From NCBI RefSeq assembly GCF_020905375.1, contig NZ_JAJJBU010000038.1, forward strand, positions 1-35,121: a DNA stretch of 35,121 nt, read 5' to 3'. A program made the position numbers and the translations under genes. The notes beneath the pieces were generated by a model that was given only the letters and a program-made list of their open reading frames with translations, made no database searches and had not been told where the DNA came from. Source of the stretch: Arthrobacter cryoconiti (GTDB lineage: Bacteria; Actinomycetota; Actinomycetes; Actinomycetales; Micrococcaceae). Shown in pieces: positions 16,393 to 20,739 of this stretch (its first letter is position 1; each line of letters begins with the position of its first letter).

Positions 16393-17262
16393 TTATGGCG
16401 CATAGCCAGAGGCGAGAATCTTCTCTTCCGGGCATGCACTGAGAATTCTTTCCATGGCGTCGTGTTCATCCTTGGTGACCCACAGCTGGTACGCCACCTT
16501 GACCGAAATCTGCCGGGCCACATATCGACAGCGAAAGCTCTTGTTGGGCGGCAGCCACGTGGCGGCGTCTGCGTCCGACTTCTCCTGGTTGGCTGGACCG
16601 TCCACAGCCAGTAGATTCAGCGGGTCATTGGCGAGACTTTGACGCTGGATCTCCGTGAGTTTTTGCGCTCCTGTGACCCACGCGTTGCCCAAAGCCACCA
16701 CGTGATCTATCTGCAACGCCGCACTTGACTGCCCGCCACGCGTGAACGTGAGATCGTGGCCTGTATAGGGCTCGTGCATGGTTCCGCCCTGAATCAGGCA
16801 CAACGACCCGATGACATAGCGCAGTTCCTTGAGGTCGCGGCGCAAGATGTCATTGCGGGTGTCGCAGCCGTTCGTATCGACATCCAGCCATGCTTCGCCA
16901 AAGACGCTTCGCTCGTACCCGGTAGCCGGAGCCCGGCCTTTCACGGGCAGGGTAGCCAGGGCAGCCAATGCGGTGGCAGTGCCCACGCGAAACACAGGCT
17001 GGCCGAGCCCGGGGACCGGCGTAGTCACCGTTGGAGGCGGCCCGGCATCTGGCTCGAAAGGCCATCTGCCGCTGGCGTGCAACCAGCCAGCTACAGCGAT
17101 GAGCAGGAGCACAAACAACGCGGCCGCGGCCATCAACAGCTTACGCATCGGATTTGCCGTGGAAGATGGGCCCGCTGTGTTCTTCTGGGCAGCCCGGTCC
17201 CTGTGGAAGTTGGCGGTACGCCCTTTTACGGAGCCTGTTTCGTTCACGGCGTGCCCGCCCAT
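16393..17262 (-). CDS. Membrane-anchored or secreted HNH nuclease (DUF1524)
   Basis: A 289-aa protein with a charged N-terminus, one hydrophobic segment near residues 40-60 (LLMAAAALFVLLLIAVAGWL) and an extracytoplasmic C-terminal HNH domain. Nuclease marks are QIDHVVALGNAWVTGA (DHVV histidine), DPLNLLAVDGPANQEKSD and the terminal CRYVARQISVKVAYQLWV helix. This DUF1524/GmrSD-type domain is common as a secreted nuclease in actinobacteria, probably for nucleic-acid scavenging or competition. The ATG at 17262 is chosen because GGAGGG lies 8 nt upstream; a TTG at 17268 is too close to it. No immunity partner is visible. Confidence 0.86.
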   Translation of the reverse strand: MGGHAVNETGSVKGRTANFHRDRAAQKNTAGPSSTANPMRKLLMAAAALFVLLLIAVAGWLHASGRWPFEPDAGPPPTVTTPVPGLGQPVFRVGTATALAALATLPVKGRAPATGYERSVFGEAWLDVDTNGCDTRNDILRRDLKELRYVIGSLCLIQGGTMHEPYTGHDLTFTRGGQSSAALQIDHVVALGNAWVTGAQKLTEIQRQSLANDPLNLLAVDGPANQEKSDADAATWLPPNKSFRCRYVARQISVKVAYQLWVTKDEHDAMERILSACPEEKILASGYAP

Positions 17263-17415
17263 GGCCAACTCCCTCCGCTTAGCGTGGCCGGATCATGCTC
17301 AGAGTCTAGGCTCGCCGCCAGAATCATGCAGGAAGTTTTCCACACCCCCAAGATCCGTGGACTATTTATCTGGGCGTTTGCAGCTCCGACAAAGCGCTTC
17401 TCATGCTCACCATGT

Positions 17416-17664
17416 TCACCATGTTTCGTCTGCCTGGTCCGCCTCGTAGGCGAGGGCCAGTGCCATTTTTGGGCACAGCTTCACCGCGTCTGCTGCGGCT
17501 TCGGAGTGTTGAAAATCGATCACCACGTTGCTGGGGTCCCCACCAGCGGCTTGCATCGCTAACGGATATCCCCAGTCGTCGCGGCCCAGCAGCGTTGGCA
17601 GGAGCTCAGTGCACAGCCCCCGGCCGTCGCACCGTGTCCAGTCGATGTGCAGTACCTCTCTCAT
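17416..17664 (-). CDS. Ferredoxin, 3Fe-4S type
   Basis: An 82-aa single-cluster ferredoxin. Cysteines are Cys12, Cys18 and Cys64 followed by Pro; position 15, where a 4Fe-4S ferredoxin would have Cys, is Arg, so a 3Fe-4S cluster is expected. It is last in the redox operon. Its ATG overlaps the TGA of the NuoF-like gene by 4 bp (ATGA), indicating translational coupling. Probable role: a one-electron carrier exchanging electrons with the NuoF-like protein. Confidence 0.88.
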   Translation of the reverse strand: MREVLHIDWTRCDGRGLCTELLPTLLGRDDWGYPLAMQAAGGDPSNVVIDFQHSEAAADAVKLCPKMALALAYEADQADETW

Positions 17665-18917
17665 GAACGTCGTCCTTTTGTTTTCAGGCAGGTCCCCGAC
17701 AAGTGCGCGTCCACATCTTCAGAAAATTGGTCCAGGGCGCTTCTTACAAGTTCAGCCGTCCCATCCGGGTGGTGACAAGCACCGCGGCCAGTAACCACGT
17801 CACTTAGCCGGACCAGTTCCAGCAGTAGTCGTGGATCACGGTCGCCATAGGCAATGGCATTCATGACTCTGGCCATCGCCGGAAGACCGAACATGCAGGG
17901 GCCGCACTGTTTTGCCGACTGCGTGGCCAAGTAGCTCACGATCTGCGCAGTGGCCTCGAGTCCGCACTGTGAGTGAAGAAGAACATGCACCACTCCGGCA
18001 CCGGGCCTGACAGTATGACTTTCAGTCCCTGTGGGAGCCAGTCTGTAGTCCAGCCGACGCACCCACCGCCCGTGATAGCCTCCCACTAGGAGGGCTCCGA
18101 CGGTGGAAACGTCGATTCCGGATTGAGTCAGCACGTCTTCAAGACTCACATCCCCTGCGACTTCTAGTATCTGTCCACTAATTGGGCCAGAAATGGAGAG
18201 AAGTCGTGTGCCGGGATCCCGTTCCGTGCCTACGCAACGGAACCAGGCGGCGCCGAAGCGGGCGATCAAGGCCATGTGAGCCAGCGTTTCCACATTAAAC
18301 ACAAGCGTCGGGCGGCCTTTAAACCCCGAATCGCTAAGCCTTCTTCGGCGCTCTAGTGGCAGCGCCTTACCGTTGGCAATGCTGTTCACAACGGCGCTGG
18401 CCTCACCGGATATGAAGGTCTCACTGGCTGCGACTATTTTGATGTTGCGAGCGTCCGTCCTTTCGGCCAGGGCGCGTTTTACGGCCGGAATGCTCGGTGC
18501 GCTCACGTACATGAACATCTGCCCTCCGGCGACTGCGCGCGCTGCGCAAAGCAGCCCGTCGATCACCACATGCGGGGCATGGGCAAGGAGCGTTTTGTCC
18601 TTGAAACTCAGAGGCTCGCCCTCAGCGCCATTCGCGATCACCACCGGTTTAGTCGCCATGATTGCTCTGGAACGGGCGGCGGCCCCAGCAGCAGCGATCT
18701 TCCGCCACGAGGCAAATGCTGCTCCGCCACGCCCAGTTAAACCTGCGGATTCCAGCACGTCGATGAAGTCCCCTTCGATGCCGGAGGCGGGCAACGGACC
18801 AAACGCCTGAACATGTGCGCTTATATCGGCGTTGTTGCCAGCAGCAAATAGACGGTACGTCCCGCGAAGTCCCCGGTGATCCCCAAGGCCTGGCATTTGT
18901 GCAGCCAGGCTCGTCAT
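17661..18917 (-). CDS. NuoF-like NADH/FMN/iron-sulfur oxidoreductase
   Basis: A 418-aa protein homologous to complex I subunit NuoF outside any nuo operon. The FMN/NADH fold shows LTGRGGAAFASWRK, NGAEGEPLSFKDK, FISGEASAVVNSI and PTLVFNVETLAHMALI, aligning with the canonical GRGGAGFP, FKDR, GEETALLNS and NNVETL motifs. The iron-sulfur region reads SAKQCGPCMFGLPAM and GACHHPDG: the first of the four canonical cysteines is Ala, leaving three. I believe this is usual in actinobacterial stand-alone homologs. ATG 18917 overlaps the preceding TGA by 4 bp. Likely role: oxidise NAD(P)H and feed the ferredoxin and the membrane partner. Confidence 0.88.
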   Translation of the reverse strand: MTSLAAQMPGLGDHRGLRGTYRLFAAGNNADISAHVQAFGPLPASGIEGDFIDVLESAGLTGRGGAAFASWRKIAAAGAAARSRAIMATKPVVIANGAEGEPLSFKDKTLLAHAPHVVIDGLLCAARAVAGGQMFMYVSAPSIPAVKRALAERTDARNIKIVAASETFISGEASAVVNSIANGKALPLERRRRLSDSGFKGRPTLVFNVETLAHMALIARFGAAWFRCVGTERDPGTRLLSISGPISGQILEVAGDVSLEDVLTQSGIDVSTVGALLVGGYHGRWVRRLDYRLAPTGTESHTVRPGAGVVHVLLHSQCGLEATAQIVSYLATQSAKQCGPCMFGLPAMARVMNAIAYGDRDPRLLLELVRLSDVVTGRGACHHPDGTAELVRSALDQFSEDVDAHLSGTCLKTKGRRS

Positions 18918-19471
18918 TGCAATTCCTCCTGGCGGGTTTTTGCTGTTTCAAGGAAGTTCGTTGAAAAACGCCACACCAGGGCGGCACCTACGCTGATTAG
19001 TGAGCAAATGGCCAGCATGAGGAAGAACTTGCTGGTCCCATCTGTGCCGTTACCGAGGGCGTGGGCCAACGCGATAGGCCACATGGCATACGTAAACCAG
19101 TGCACTGCGCGAAACGCCCGCACGCCAATGCGGCGCCGTAAGAGGCTGGTCACCACTACCGCAACCACCAGATCGAAAGCCACCGTGCCGAGTCCTTGCC
19201 AAAACGGCCGGTAGGACCCTAAGAAGGGCACGACGACGTCGGCCACAGTGAGCTTCGCGAAGGAGTCCAGTACCAGGGTCCCCACGTGGAGGGCCAGAAA
19301 AATTGTGGCCAACAATGCAAAGTTGCGATGGATCAGGGTCAACGAATACCGTGGGATGCTGAGCAGCGGCCTGCCCGAGCGTGTGAGTATCCCCAACACG
19401 ACGGTGCCGGTAAAGAGGATCAGCGAGACGATTCCGCTCACGCGTCCCAAGGCCCACAGGGTGTTATCCAC
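18914..19471 (-). CDS. Ferric-reductase-like heme membrane protein
   Basis: A 185-aa membrane protein with about five or six helices and no cytoplasmic FAD/NADPH domain. Two His pairs in facing helices, His48/His62 and His124/His137, fit two stacked hemes as in ferric reductase, NOX and MsrQ-type domains. The GTG start at 19471 overlaps the ApbE stop by 8 bp. The missing reductase domain is plausibly supplied in trans by the NuoF-like protein encoded next. Expected role: move electrons across the membrane to an extracytoplasmic acceptor. Confidence 0.85.
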   Translation of the reverse strand: MDNTLWALGRVSGIVSLILFTGTVVLGILTRSGRPLLSIPRYSLTLIHRNFALLATIFLALHVGTLVLDSFAKLTVADVVVPFLGSYRPFWQGLGTVAFDLVVAVVVTSLLRRRIGVRAFRAVHWFTYAMWPIALAHALGNGTDGTSKFFLMLAICSLISVGAALVWRFSTNFLETAKTRQEELQ

Positions 19472-20486
19472 AGGACCGGGCTCCAGAGCATGCTAAACCA
19501 CTGCCCTGTTCGTCTTGGGGCCAGTCCCCAGTCGTAACAACTCTTCCTTGCTGATCGATCAGACGTGCCGCAACTCCATCGTGTTGGAACCACTCCACCG
19601 CTGCGAAGCCGCGAACTATGCCAGCGGTGCTGTAGACATTCGCCCGCAAGCAGGAGGGGGCCGCCACCGTGACGGAACGCCAGATGGATTCTGCGGGCAA
19701 CCCAAAGCGGGGATCAAGAATGTGATGGACTGACGTTCCCGCGCGCTGCCACCTACGCTTCTGGGTGCTCGAGGTCGCCACGGCAAAGCCGGCCCCCAGC
19801 GTGACCTGCTGCCACGGATCCGCTGCAAGGTCCTGAACGAGGACTTGCCAGCCACCCTCAGGTGCAGGTCCGGACGTCGCGATGTCACCCCCTAAAGACA
19901 CCAATGCTCCGCAGCCCAAGGCGGCAAACACCCGCGCGGCGGCCTGATCGGCTGCTACGGCTTTGGCCGTGGCCCCTAAATCGAGGAGAAGATCCTCTGG
20001 CACCGTCAGGATCCCCTCTTCAAAGCGAACCCGCGACCACCCGGGGATGCGCGAAAAGGCAGCGACCGGCACAGTAGTCCGCGACGAAATGGCGGCGACA
20101 GCTGCGTCATCGCTCCGCTCAGTGAGGGCGGGCGAGTAGATAGTGACTTCGGAGATGTCGCGATCGTAACCAAGGGCTCTGAGTTCATTACCCAAAGTCG
20201 GGTCCACATCTCCGTCACTCCATTGAGCGGCGTTCAGTGCGCTAACGATCAGCACGCTCAGTTGCGGGCTGATGCGCGCCCCCTGTGAAAGTTGCGGCCT
20301 GATTCTCGCCAGTTCCGAATCTGCACGGAATCCGCTGCACGCTTCATCTATCTCTTCAATAACTACGCGGACAAGTTTCTCAGAGGCACGCACTAATGCC
20401 GGATCGGTAACCGTGAGGGATACTTTTATACCCCATGCAGTCCACGAGGACTGACCGCTCATCTTAGGAACCTGAGGAGTGAGCAT
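19464..20486 (-). CDS. apbE: FAD:protein FMN transferase (ApbE family)
   Basis: A 340-aa enzyme that attaches FMN from FAD covalently to a Thr or Ser of extracytoplasmic proteins. Family motifs are DLGATAKAVAADQAA (usual DLGGIAKG), VSLGGDIATSG (usual LGGN), HHILDPRFGLPA (usual HIIDPRTG) and ANVYSTAGIVRG. No clear signal peptide or lipobox is seen at the chosen start. ATG 20486 is preceded by GGAGGGG with a 6-nt gap; the frame is open upstream but overlaps the previous gene. It overlaps that gene by about 23 bp. No PF04205-type FMN-binding target is found in the window. Confidence 0.88.
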   Translation of the reverse strand: MLTPQVPKMSGQSSWTAWGIKVSLTVTDPALVRASEKLVRVVIEEIDEACSGFRADSELARIRPQLSQGARISPQLSVLIVSALNAAQWSDGDVDPTLGNELRALGYDRDISEVTIYSPALTERSDDAAVAAISSRTTVPVAAFSRIPGWSRVRFEEGILTVPEDLLLDLGATAKAVAADQAAARVFAALGCGALVSLGGDIATSGPAPEGGWQVLVQDLAADPWQQVTLGAGFAVATSSTQKRRWQRAGTSVHHILDPRFGLPAESIWRSVTVAAPSCLRANVYSTAGIVRGFAAVEWFQHDGVAARLIDQQGRVVTTGDWPQDEQGSGLACSGARSCG

Positions 20487-20739
20487 TGATTGCCCCTCCA
20501 TTGCCAGGCTGTACCGCGCTGCCATCGGGAGAATAACCATTGTCTTGGGGTTGAGTTGGCACGGAAGCTTGACTCGGCGAAGTACCTGGATCAGGGCTCG
20601 TGTTAGAAGTTGTAGTTGCATGGACAGGAATGGTCGGCTGAACCGCCAACACCGCTACGCCTGCTGCAGTCATGCTGCTGGCAGCAACTACCGTGGTGAT
20701 GCGAGTCGCCCACTGCTTGCCACTGATTTGTGCGCCCAT
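20464..20739 (-). CDS. Small secreted or membrane-tethered peptide of the redox operon
   Basis: A 91-aa protein, not assigned to a family. A cationic N-terminus (SGKQWATR) is followed by a hydrophobic segment to about residue 40, ending VHA, which fits a signal peptide cut or a single anchor. The rest is low-complexity Ser/Thr/Pro/Asp/Gly rich, ending NAHSSGS. ATG 20739 has GGAG 9 nt upstream. It is first in the operon and overlaps apbE. Inference: an extracytoplasmic partner, possibly a flavinylation target, because a Ser/Thr-rich secreted chain precedes the flavin transferase. No known acceptor domain is visible. Confidence 0.68.
   Translation of the reverse strand: MGAQISGKQWATRITTVVAASSMTAAGVAVLAVQPTIPVHATTTSNTSPDPGTSPSQASVPTQPQDNGYSPDGSAVQPGNGGAINAHSSGS

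Follow-up and report, generated by a model that had tools for sequence, protein, structure and literature searches.

In the present study we analysed a stretch of Arthrobacter cryoconiti DNA (contig NZ_JAJJBU010000038.1, 35,121 nt, hereafter the window), in which an operon of five genes on the minus strand (span 17416..20739; Table 1) encodes, in this order, a small protein, ApbE (flavin adenine dinucleotide (FAD):protein flavin mononucleotide (FMN) transferase), a cytochrome b, a NuoF-like protein and a ferredoxin. A preliminary description, made from the sequence alone, had reported five overlapping genes for a small secreted protein, ApbE, a four-His cytochrome, a NuoF-like protein and a 3Fe-4S ferredoxin. 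All five genes lie where it had placed them, and their identities are borne out by Pfam matches and conserved His and Cys residues; overlap was found at three of the four junctions (apbE/cytochrome 8 nt, cytochrome/NuoF-like 4 nt, NuoF-like/ferredoxin 4 nt), the first (small gene/apbE) being a gap of 1 nt. The start of apbE is the ATG at 20462, one base past the stop of the small gene (the longer listed open reading frame (ORF), from 20621, uses an upstream start), and in many relatives an ATG or GTG for apbE follows immediately after the small-gene stop. The operon is conserved across related genomes (80 related loci; individual loci are given below by L number) and is thus no chance arrangement. 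The closest relatives also point to a probable host within the Micrococcaceae.

Table 1. Features of the five-gene operon in the window (E-values refer to Pfam families)
Feature	Coordinates	Strand	Description or evidence
Small protein, 91 aa	20464..20739	-	Proposed ApbE substrate (flavin carrier); membrane-anchored, disordered
Predicted single membrane-spanning/signal-anchor segment, residues ~14-33	20641..20700	-	Hydrophobicity scan
C-terminal heptad N-A-H-S-S-G-S	20467..20487	-	Proposed flavinylation motif, last Ser putative FMN acceptor
ApbE, FAD:protein FMN transferase, 332 aa	19464..20462	-	PF02424 E=6.6e-44
MsrQ/NOX/STEAP-like cytochrome b, without reductase domain	18914..19471	-	Ferric_reduct PF01794 E=3.6e-9
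NuoF-like protein	17661..18917	-	Complex1_51K PF01512 E=7.5e-27 and NADH_4Fe-4S PF10589 E=5.7e-17
Ferredoxin, three conserved Cys, 3Fe-4S type	17416..17664	-	Fer4_15 PF13459 E=3.5e-9

The small protein consists of a basic N-terminus, one membrane segment, a disordered linker and the C-terminus N-A-H-S-S-G-S-COOH, and its start agrees with that of relatives (MGTQISGRQWAARITT in L002). Neither Pfam (no family above cut-off, FMN_bind included; best E-value 0.041) nor NCBIfam (no match at E-values up to 0.1) recognized it, and since both sets of models miss it, operons of this kind are annotated without what would be their key part. In the 80 related loci, the ORF before apbE (before the cytochrome gene in mycobacteria) mostly encodes a small protein of similar build, in which a basic N-terminus and one hydrophobic stretch are followed by a Ser/Gly/Thr- or Pro-rich linker (tail length 41-154 residues, median 72) with ends such as HGRSSGS, HATSSGS, HAQSGGS and HTTSKGS. 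Judged by these shared sequence features, the small proteins constitute an equivalent family across the related operons of the class Actinomycetes. The idea that the small gene is a degenerated or remote FMN_bind was rejected, in view of the empty Pfam search and of relatives that make up a family of their own with a conserved tail. Among 71 relatives the mean net charge was +2.7 at the N-terminus and -0.5 in the tail, with the more positive side lying before the membrane segment in 67; an N-in/C-out topology is therefore likely, and charge and composition together point to a tail that likely lies outside the membrane.

The last two residues were G-S in 78 of the 81 loci (the 80 related ones and the window), i.e. 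in all 78 small proteins that could be judged (a run of N in L001, a contig end in L010 and a broken apbE frame in L015 left the protein not judgeable), with residue -4 being Ser in 74, Thr in 2 and Ala in 2, residue -3 variable, and the seventh-last residue His in 48 and Asp in 4; as 71 of the 78 had been picked by a rule already requiring the motif and 7 by position only, the fair count is a motif-blind one. For the latter, the ORF before apbE or the cytochrome gene was chosen without regard to its end, and its last 40 residues were shuffled as a null. In a first set (the 81 loci) [ST]-x-G-[ST] stood at the very end of 68 of 71 candidates (2.1 expected by shuffling), the misses being L056 (AKGS), L077 (AHGS) and L070 (the rule took another frame); in a second set (37 independent strong loci from across the class) it did so in 25 of 30 (1.0 expected), the misses being L110 (wrong anchor; the protein ends SSGS), L113 (TGAS), L115 (SGQS), L116 (SHSS) and L117 (SNAS). 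In both L110 and L112 the small protein is present before apbE. Among ORFs passing the same filter in 180 loci, the motif end was found in 97 of 128 near apbE or the cytochrome gene versus 7 of 228 elsewhere, and 5 of these 7 were displaced or second copies (L041, L074, L079, two in L109). Furthermore, the motif Gly is encoded by GGG in 30, GGA in 24, GGC in 12 and GGT in 12 of the 78 genes, and the Ser codons are mixed too, which argues for constraint and selection on the protein.

Additional small proteins were encountered outside the usual position. In L028 (2416-2778), L035 (2186-2617), L074 and L079 (minus strand), second small proteins (ends TSSGS, TSQGS, SHGS) are encoded ahead of paired genes for a response regulator and a histidine kinase that adjoin the operon (Pfam assignment of the pair for L028 only), as if one ApbE served two carriers. 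L109 (minus strand) holds two tandem small proteins (ends VAQSGGS and VAHSGGS) behind the ferredoxin gene and not before apbE. In the Mycobacterium locus L159 (2532-5357) a second apbE is flanked by the genes for a Pro-rich small protein (end HAVSKASGG) and for a cytochrome b-Fer2 fusion, so that small carriers may serve fused reductases too. L163 and L164 encode proteins of 238 and 243 aa (end TTYTRGS) that precede apbE and a remote cytochrome, and which are perhaps a folded version of the carrier.

ApbE is described as placing FMN on the last residue of D-x-x-[ST]-G-A-[ST], with seven residues being sufficient (PMC12052999). The window end N-A-H-S-S-G-S has the length of this canonical site, with Ser as its fourth and its seventh residue. 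Among distant relatives, the canonical site itself occupies the equivalent terminus (DSNTGAS-end in L113, DATTGAS-end in L165, DTSTGASG-end in L175), and bridging ends connect the two forms (HTKTGAS in L176, HTTTGASGVIK in L177, HTTTGGS in L179, HATTGGS in L087, HATSGATS in L098, DASSNAS in L117). This canonical-to-altered series is the strongest argument for the small-protein tail as an ApbE substrate. The altered window motif is moreover plausible, as site mutants with Asp changed to Ala showed a minor effect and changes of Gly or Ala cut flavinylation to about half (PMC12052999). An engineered seven-residue flavin tag, furthermore, performs best at the N or C terminus of a protein (PMC12052999), which speaks for the small protein as flavin carrier. 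The preliminary description had left the acceptor modified by ApbE open; in light of the motif series and its conservation we consider that the small protein encoded by the first gene is very likely the substrate of the operon ApbE, and that its last Ser is probably the flavinylation site.

Among solved structures, the window ApbE has the ApbE homologues 3pnd (E=1e-16), 1vrm and 6nxi, and, like nearly all of its relatives, it keeps the Ser, His and Arg equivalent to FmnB S257, H273 and R262 (catalytic residues as named in PMC12052999, columns placed by spacing and partly from recall). At the column of the catalytic Asp (FmnB D301), the 109 main rows carry Asn in 103, Glu in 5 and a gap in 1 (the small protein beside apbE was verified for part of these rows, and in the mycobacterial L158, L173 and L174 apbE lies apart), two far groups carry Glu in 20/20 rows, and the FMN_bind-paired enzymes carry Asp in 22/22 aligned rows (21 so labelled plus the L025 row, i.e. 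the enzyme near the FMN_bind gene of L025; 4 more FMN_bind-paired loci gave no row). In an ApbE tree of 61 rows (25 random Asn rows and the window, all longer non-Asn rows, and 9 FMN_bind-paired rows, namely those long enough, all of divergent type), the operon-kind enzymes fell on one side of a 100/100 branch, apart from the FMN_bind-paired ones, and the Asn enzymes formed one group (99/98). The residue in the D301 column is thus a possible enzyme-substrate signature of the substrate class; its link to the altered tag is not strict, as L113 and L098 combine Asn with a canonical or near-canonical tag. On these sequence comparisons it seems probable that the class Actinomycetes harbors a family, so far without a name, of foldless ApbE substrates that are tethered to the membrane and bear the flavin at the extreme C-terminus, accompanied by a dedicated ApbE lineage, in which the acid change (Asp to Glu/Asn) would roughly parallel the tag shift from D-x-x-T-G-A-S to H-x-x-S-x-G-S.

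The genome of origin (3.6 Mb, 99.97% complete) encodes exactly one ApbE, that of the operon. As the preliminary description had noted, the operon encodes no FMN-binding domain protein, and a PF04205 (FMN_bind) search gave no match in the whole genome either; a second profile that included divergent actinobacterial FMN_bind likewise returned nothing at E-values up to 1 (a search with no positive control, which shows little), and DUF2271 and NqrB/RnfD had no match (DUF3570, Flavodoxin_4 and FMN_red lay outside the search). A distant FMN_bind partner in the same genome was considered and set aside, both FMN_bind profiles being empty, and the cytochrome was rejected as an ApbE target because its T-D-G-T is not conserved in the cytochrome alignment (judged by eye; the other operon proteins lay outside this motif check). 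Across 50 cytochrome-holding genomes, ApbE was found in 50 and PF04205 in 36, and of the 14 operon genomes without PF04205, 12 hold exactly one ApbE match. For all 40 PF04205 matches in the 36 genomes, an ApbE match was located no more than about 1 kb away (comparison by eye). Taken together, these counts and the searches of the genome of origin argue that the operon ApbE is independent of FMN_bind. The FMN_bind domains of operon-type genomes often show a canonical site (e.g. DTVSGAT). Within the loci themselves, FMN_bind profile matches were absent from the 60 loci L082-L141 and found in two of L001-L080 (L013 and L025), a few kb off and on the opposite strand. These two loci (Leifsonia-type) have the small gene, cytochrome, NuoF-like and ferredoxin genes without apbE between them.

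In a wider set of 296 genomes of the class, PF02424 was detected in 168, PF04205 in 111 and the cytochrome profile in 88. ApbE was present in all 111 FMN_bind genomes, and in 60/61 genomes with a strong cytochrome match versus 108/235 others (strong and weak matches being divided at 76 bits, a line set by us, and the genome lists compiled by hand); the sole strong-cytochrome genome without ApbE is fragmented, with its match at a contig end. Of the 57 ApbE genomes without PF04205, 35 hold a strong cytochrome/operon match, and among the remaining 22 we inspected the loci of 13 (9 lying outside the inspection): five encode a small protein (238-243 aa in L163 and L164) with an [ST]-x-[GA]-[ST] end, seven an FMN_bind-like neighbour missed by the Pfam search (two of these weak, 23 and 17 bits), and one (L129, a cytochrome-bearing locus without the ApbE) neither. 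The FMN_bind lipoproteins adjoining apbE in L166-L169 are divergent, with V[AS]GSSLTS in place of SGAT, and the PF04205 search was empty in these genomes. The motif-blind rule returned no small protein for 10 operons in which the cytochrome is a weak homologue and apbE is not adjacent; 6 of these 10 genomes lack any ApbE. The Mycobacterium genome of L054, in turn, encodes an ApbE of the operon kind elsewhere, beside a ferredoxin gene (L158). Thus, the small protein goes with ApbE somewhere in the genome (not always adjacent) rather than with the cytochrome fold alone.

As for the electron-transfer components, His 48, 62, 124 and 137 of the cytochrome are invariant in 29 aligned sequences, and its AlphaFold model is helical (mean predicted local distance difference test (pLDDT) 81), with NOX5, DUOX1 and STEAP2 as best PDB matches at weak E-values (0.045-0.1); the four His and the helical model agree with the two heme sites in six helices expected of an MsrQ-like system, and the cytochrome is accordingly predicted to be a two-heme protein, as in MsrQ/NOX/STEAP proteins. 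The NuoF-like protein falls far below the cut-off of TIGR01959 and reaches 153 bits against a cut-off of 559 for the NCBIfam model nuoF_fam, hence it is not NuoF itself; five of its columns are Cys in 80/80 rows with a letter (84 rows), and from its domains (FMN/NADH and Fe-S) it is likely a dehydrogenase of NAD(P)H (reduced nicotinamide adenine dinucleotide (phosphate)). The ferredoxin shows C-x5-C...C in 69/69 aligned relatives, a three-Cys spacing which we take to be that of the 3Fe-4S type.

Considering the observed gene content, conservation, motif series and co-occurrence, we propose that the 91-aa protein would be held in the membrane by its N-terminus, with a disordered tail ending in a modified ApbE recognition motif, and that ApbE would transfer FMN from FAD onto the C-terminal Ser. 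The FMN would thereby sit on a foldless flexible tether outside the membrane, as a natural C-terminal flavin tag. Electrons may then pass from NAD(P)H to the NuoF-like protein, the 3Fe-4S ferredoxin, the two cytochrome hemes and the tethered FMN, which would hand them on to an acceptor outside the cell (ferric iron or a quinone, for example). A chain from NAD(P)H to the exterior had been put forward in the preliminary description, and it fits both the genes present and what is described for MsrQ-like flavinylation systems (PMC8238504). We regard it as highly probable that the operon is a complete outward flavin-based electron device with the first gene encoding its flavin carrier; for the outward course of the electron chain as such our expectation is more guarded, though favorable.

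Several observations weigh against this interpretation, foremost the replacement of the catalytic Asp in ApbE and the missing ApbE signal peptide. The window motif is non-canonical (Asn for Asp, and S-G for G-A), so that D-x-x-[ST]-G-A-[ST] is not matched, and the window ApbE carries Asn275 in the column of the catalytic Asp, a replacement by which its activity could be altered. No signal peptide was seen in the window ApbE, either in the sequence or in the AlphaFold model (first strand already at residue 3; mean pLDDT 83.8), which implies that modification of a C-out tail would precede export. A foldless carrier would, furthermore, expose its FMN to oxygen. The small protein also occurs in strong operons that have no apbE next to them (mycobacteria, L083, L096 and L115; in L115 it ends GSSGQS). 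The motif-blind rule gave no candidate in 10/81 loci of the first set (7 of these 10 do have a small protein with another start or place, the rest being L001, L010 and L015) and in 7/37 of the second (6 of these 7 show a small protein, the seventh being L109, with its copies behind the ferredoxin gene). Lastly, a far group (cytochromes of 50-99 bits) has looser ends (TKTS, SKG, RASKA), with the strict motif in 3/10 and a relaxed motif in 7/10 candidates.

Some of these points are shared by an alternative that we consider rather improbable, namely that the operon ApbE has some other target, encoded elsewhere in the genome or in the operon itself, and that the small protein assists the cytochrome as an accessory (in assembly or docking, for instance), using its conserved end as a tag for binding: the departure of the window motif from the canonical site would suit it, as would the mycobacterial arrangement, in which the small gene directly precedes the cytochrome gene and apbE does not lie between. 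Such another target is, however, opposed by the lack of any match to FMN_bind, divergent FMN_bind, DUF2271 and NqrB/RnfD in the genome of origin (family searches, which do not cover every motif protein), by the canonical ApbE motifs that end equivalent small proteins, by the absence of a candidate small protein from the 10 weak-cytochrome operons without neighbouring apbE, and by the operon-kind ApbE found by a ferredoxin gene (L158) in the Mycobacterium genome of L054.

A small carrier flavinylated by the operon ApbE could also operate in reverse, with the tethered flavin accepting electrons from an outside donor and passing them on to NAD+ by way of the hemes and the ferredoxin. The direction is not set by anything in the sequence, and reversed flow was raised as possible by Meheust et al. 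(PMC8238504); we nevertheless consider inward flow quite improbable here, given the NOX/STEAP-like folds (weak matches), an MsrQ-like class thought to reduce outside acceptors, and a VIT1 gene in 8/80 loci, which is a mild pointer to iron reduction. Iron uptake was also considered as the function of the operon; with VIT1 in these 8 loci and in none of them on the operon strand in the 3.2 kb upstream, it is kept only as a possible role. An origin of the C-terminal motif as a side effect of low complexity (Ser/Gly-rich) or of an apbE ribosome-binding site overlapping these codons, to which the tails rich in Ser/Gly/Thr and the GGG/GGA TCC TGA codons at a possible ribosome-binding-site position would lend themselves, is scarcely credible and, as sole cause, refuted by the shuffling (2.1/71 and 1.0/30 versus 68 and 25 observed), by the codons (GGC/GGT in 24/78) and by location, the motif being kept where the next gene is the cytochrome gene or far off and found in only 7/228 ORFs elsewhere (5 of them displaced or second copies).

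To our knowledge, the natural ApbE substrates known so far are folded domains, and if the carrier reading is true, a protein built of nothing more than an anchor, a disordered linker and a tag at its end would be the smallest flavoprotein design known to us. PplA of Listeria has FMN-binding domains and receives electrons from a different NADH dehydrogenase. What the operon would share with PplA-type extracellular electron transfer (PMC12052999) is the Gram-positive setting and a flavinylated protein passing electrons outwards. Closer still are the MsrQ-like flavinylation systems of Actinobacteria (Meheust et al. 2021, PMC8238504), which similarly place a PF01794 cytochrome beside apbE, with a proposed NAD(P)H-to-exterior flow, and of which 31 clusters include a NuoF-like protein; typical clusters of this kind have an FMN-binding-domain protein, in whose place the operon has a small protein that is foldless and ends in the motif. 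We accordingly class the operon with the MsrQ-like flavinylation systems, as a variant with a new type of carrier. ApbE substrates without FMN_bind have likewise been proposed from context and an [ST]GA[ST]-like motif in DUF2271 and DUF3570 (PMC8238504) and in Flavodoxin_4 and FMN_red (PMC11334425), with the predicted sites of a Lactococcus FMN_red protein lying on an unstructured C-terminal extension (PMC11334425). All four are folded domains, whereas the operon carrier has no evident fold and its motif, with S-S-G-S, is the C-terminus itself. Like the engineered flavin tag (Tong et al. 2021, via PMC12052999), it would offer ApbE about seven residues at a protein end; that tag is man-made and canonical, whereas the operon tail is natural, membrane-tethered and altered, and would thus be the natural counterpart of the engineered one.

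In the pipeline of Meheust et al. (2021; PMC8238504), a gene for ApbE, an FMN-binding domain, DUF3570 or DUF2271 had to encode a signal peptide or a site for lipidation, and 4% of genomes (670) remained in which ApbE had no known substrate. Small carriers would give a target to many such orphan ApbEs and, if the proposal is true, to a large share of the target-less ApbEs of Actinomycetes. A literature search (listings with abstract openings; preprints and most subscription journals outside its range) returned no description of such a small carrier, which is also unmentioned in the available parts of PMC8238504 (its supplementary tables excluded), PMC11334425 and PMC12052999.

With regard to the surroundings of the operon, a link to a regulator was considered and not adopted: histidine kinases of a single kind are encoded in the 3.2 kb upstream of 20/80 loci, and none directly precedes the operon in the window. 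The records of L010, L034 and L078 are titled Acidobacteria, Sporosarcina and Bifidobacterium, and as their operons lie near the Micrococcaceae or mycobacterial ones, they are probably mislabelled or misbinned. The gene directly downstream of the operon in the window, on the same strand (16393-17268, minus), codes for a protein that is secreted or anchored and contains a GmrSD_C domain (PF07510).

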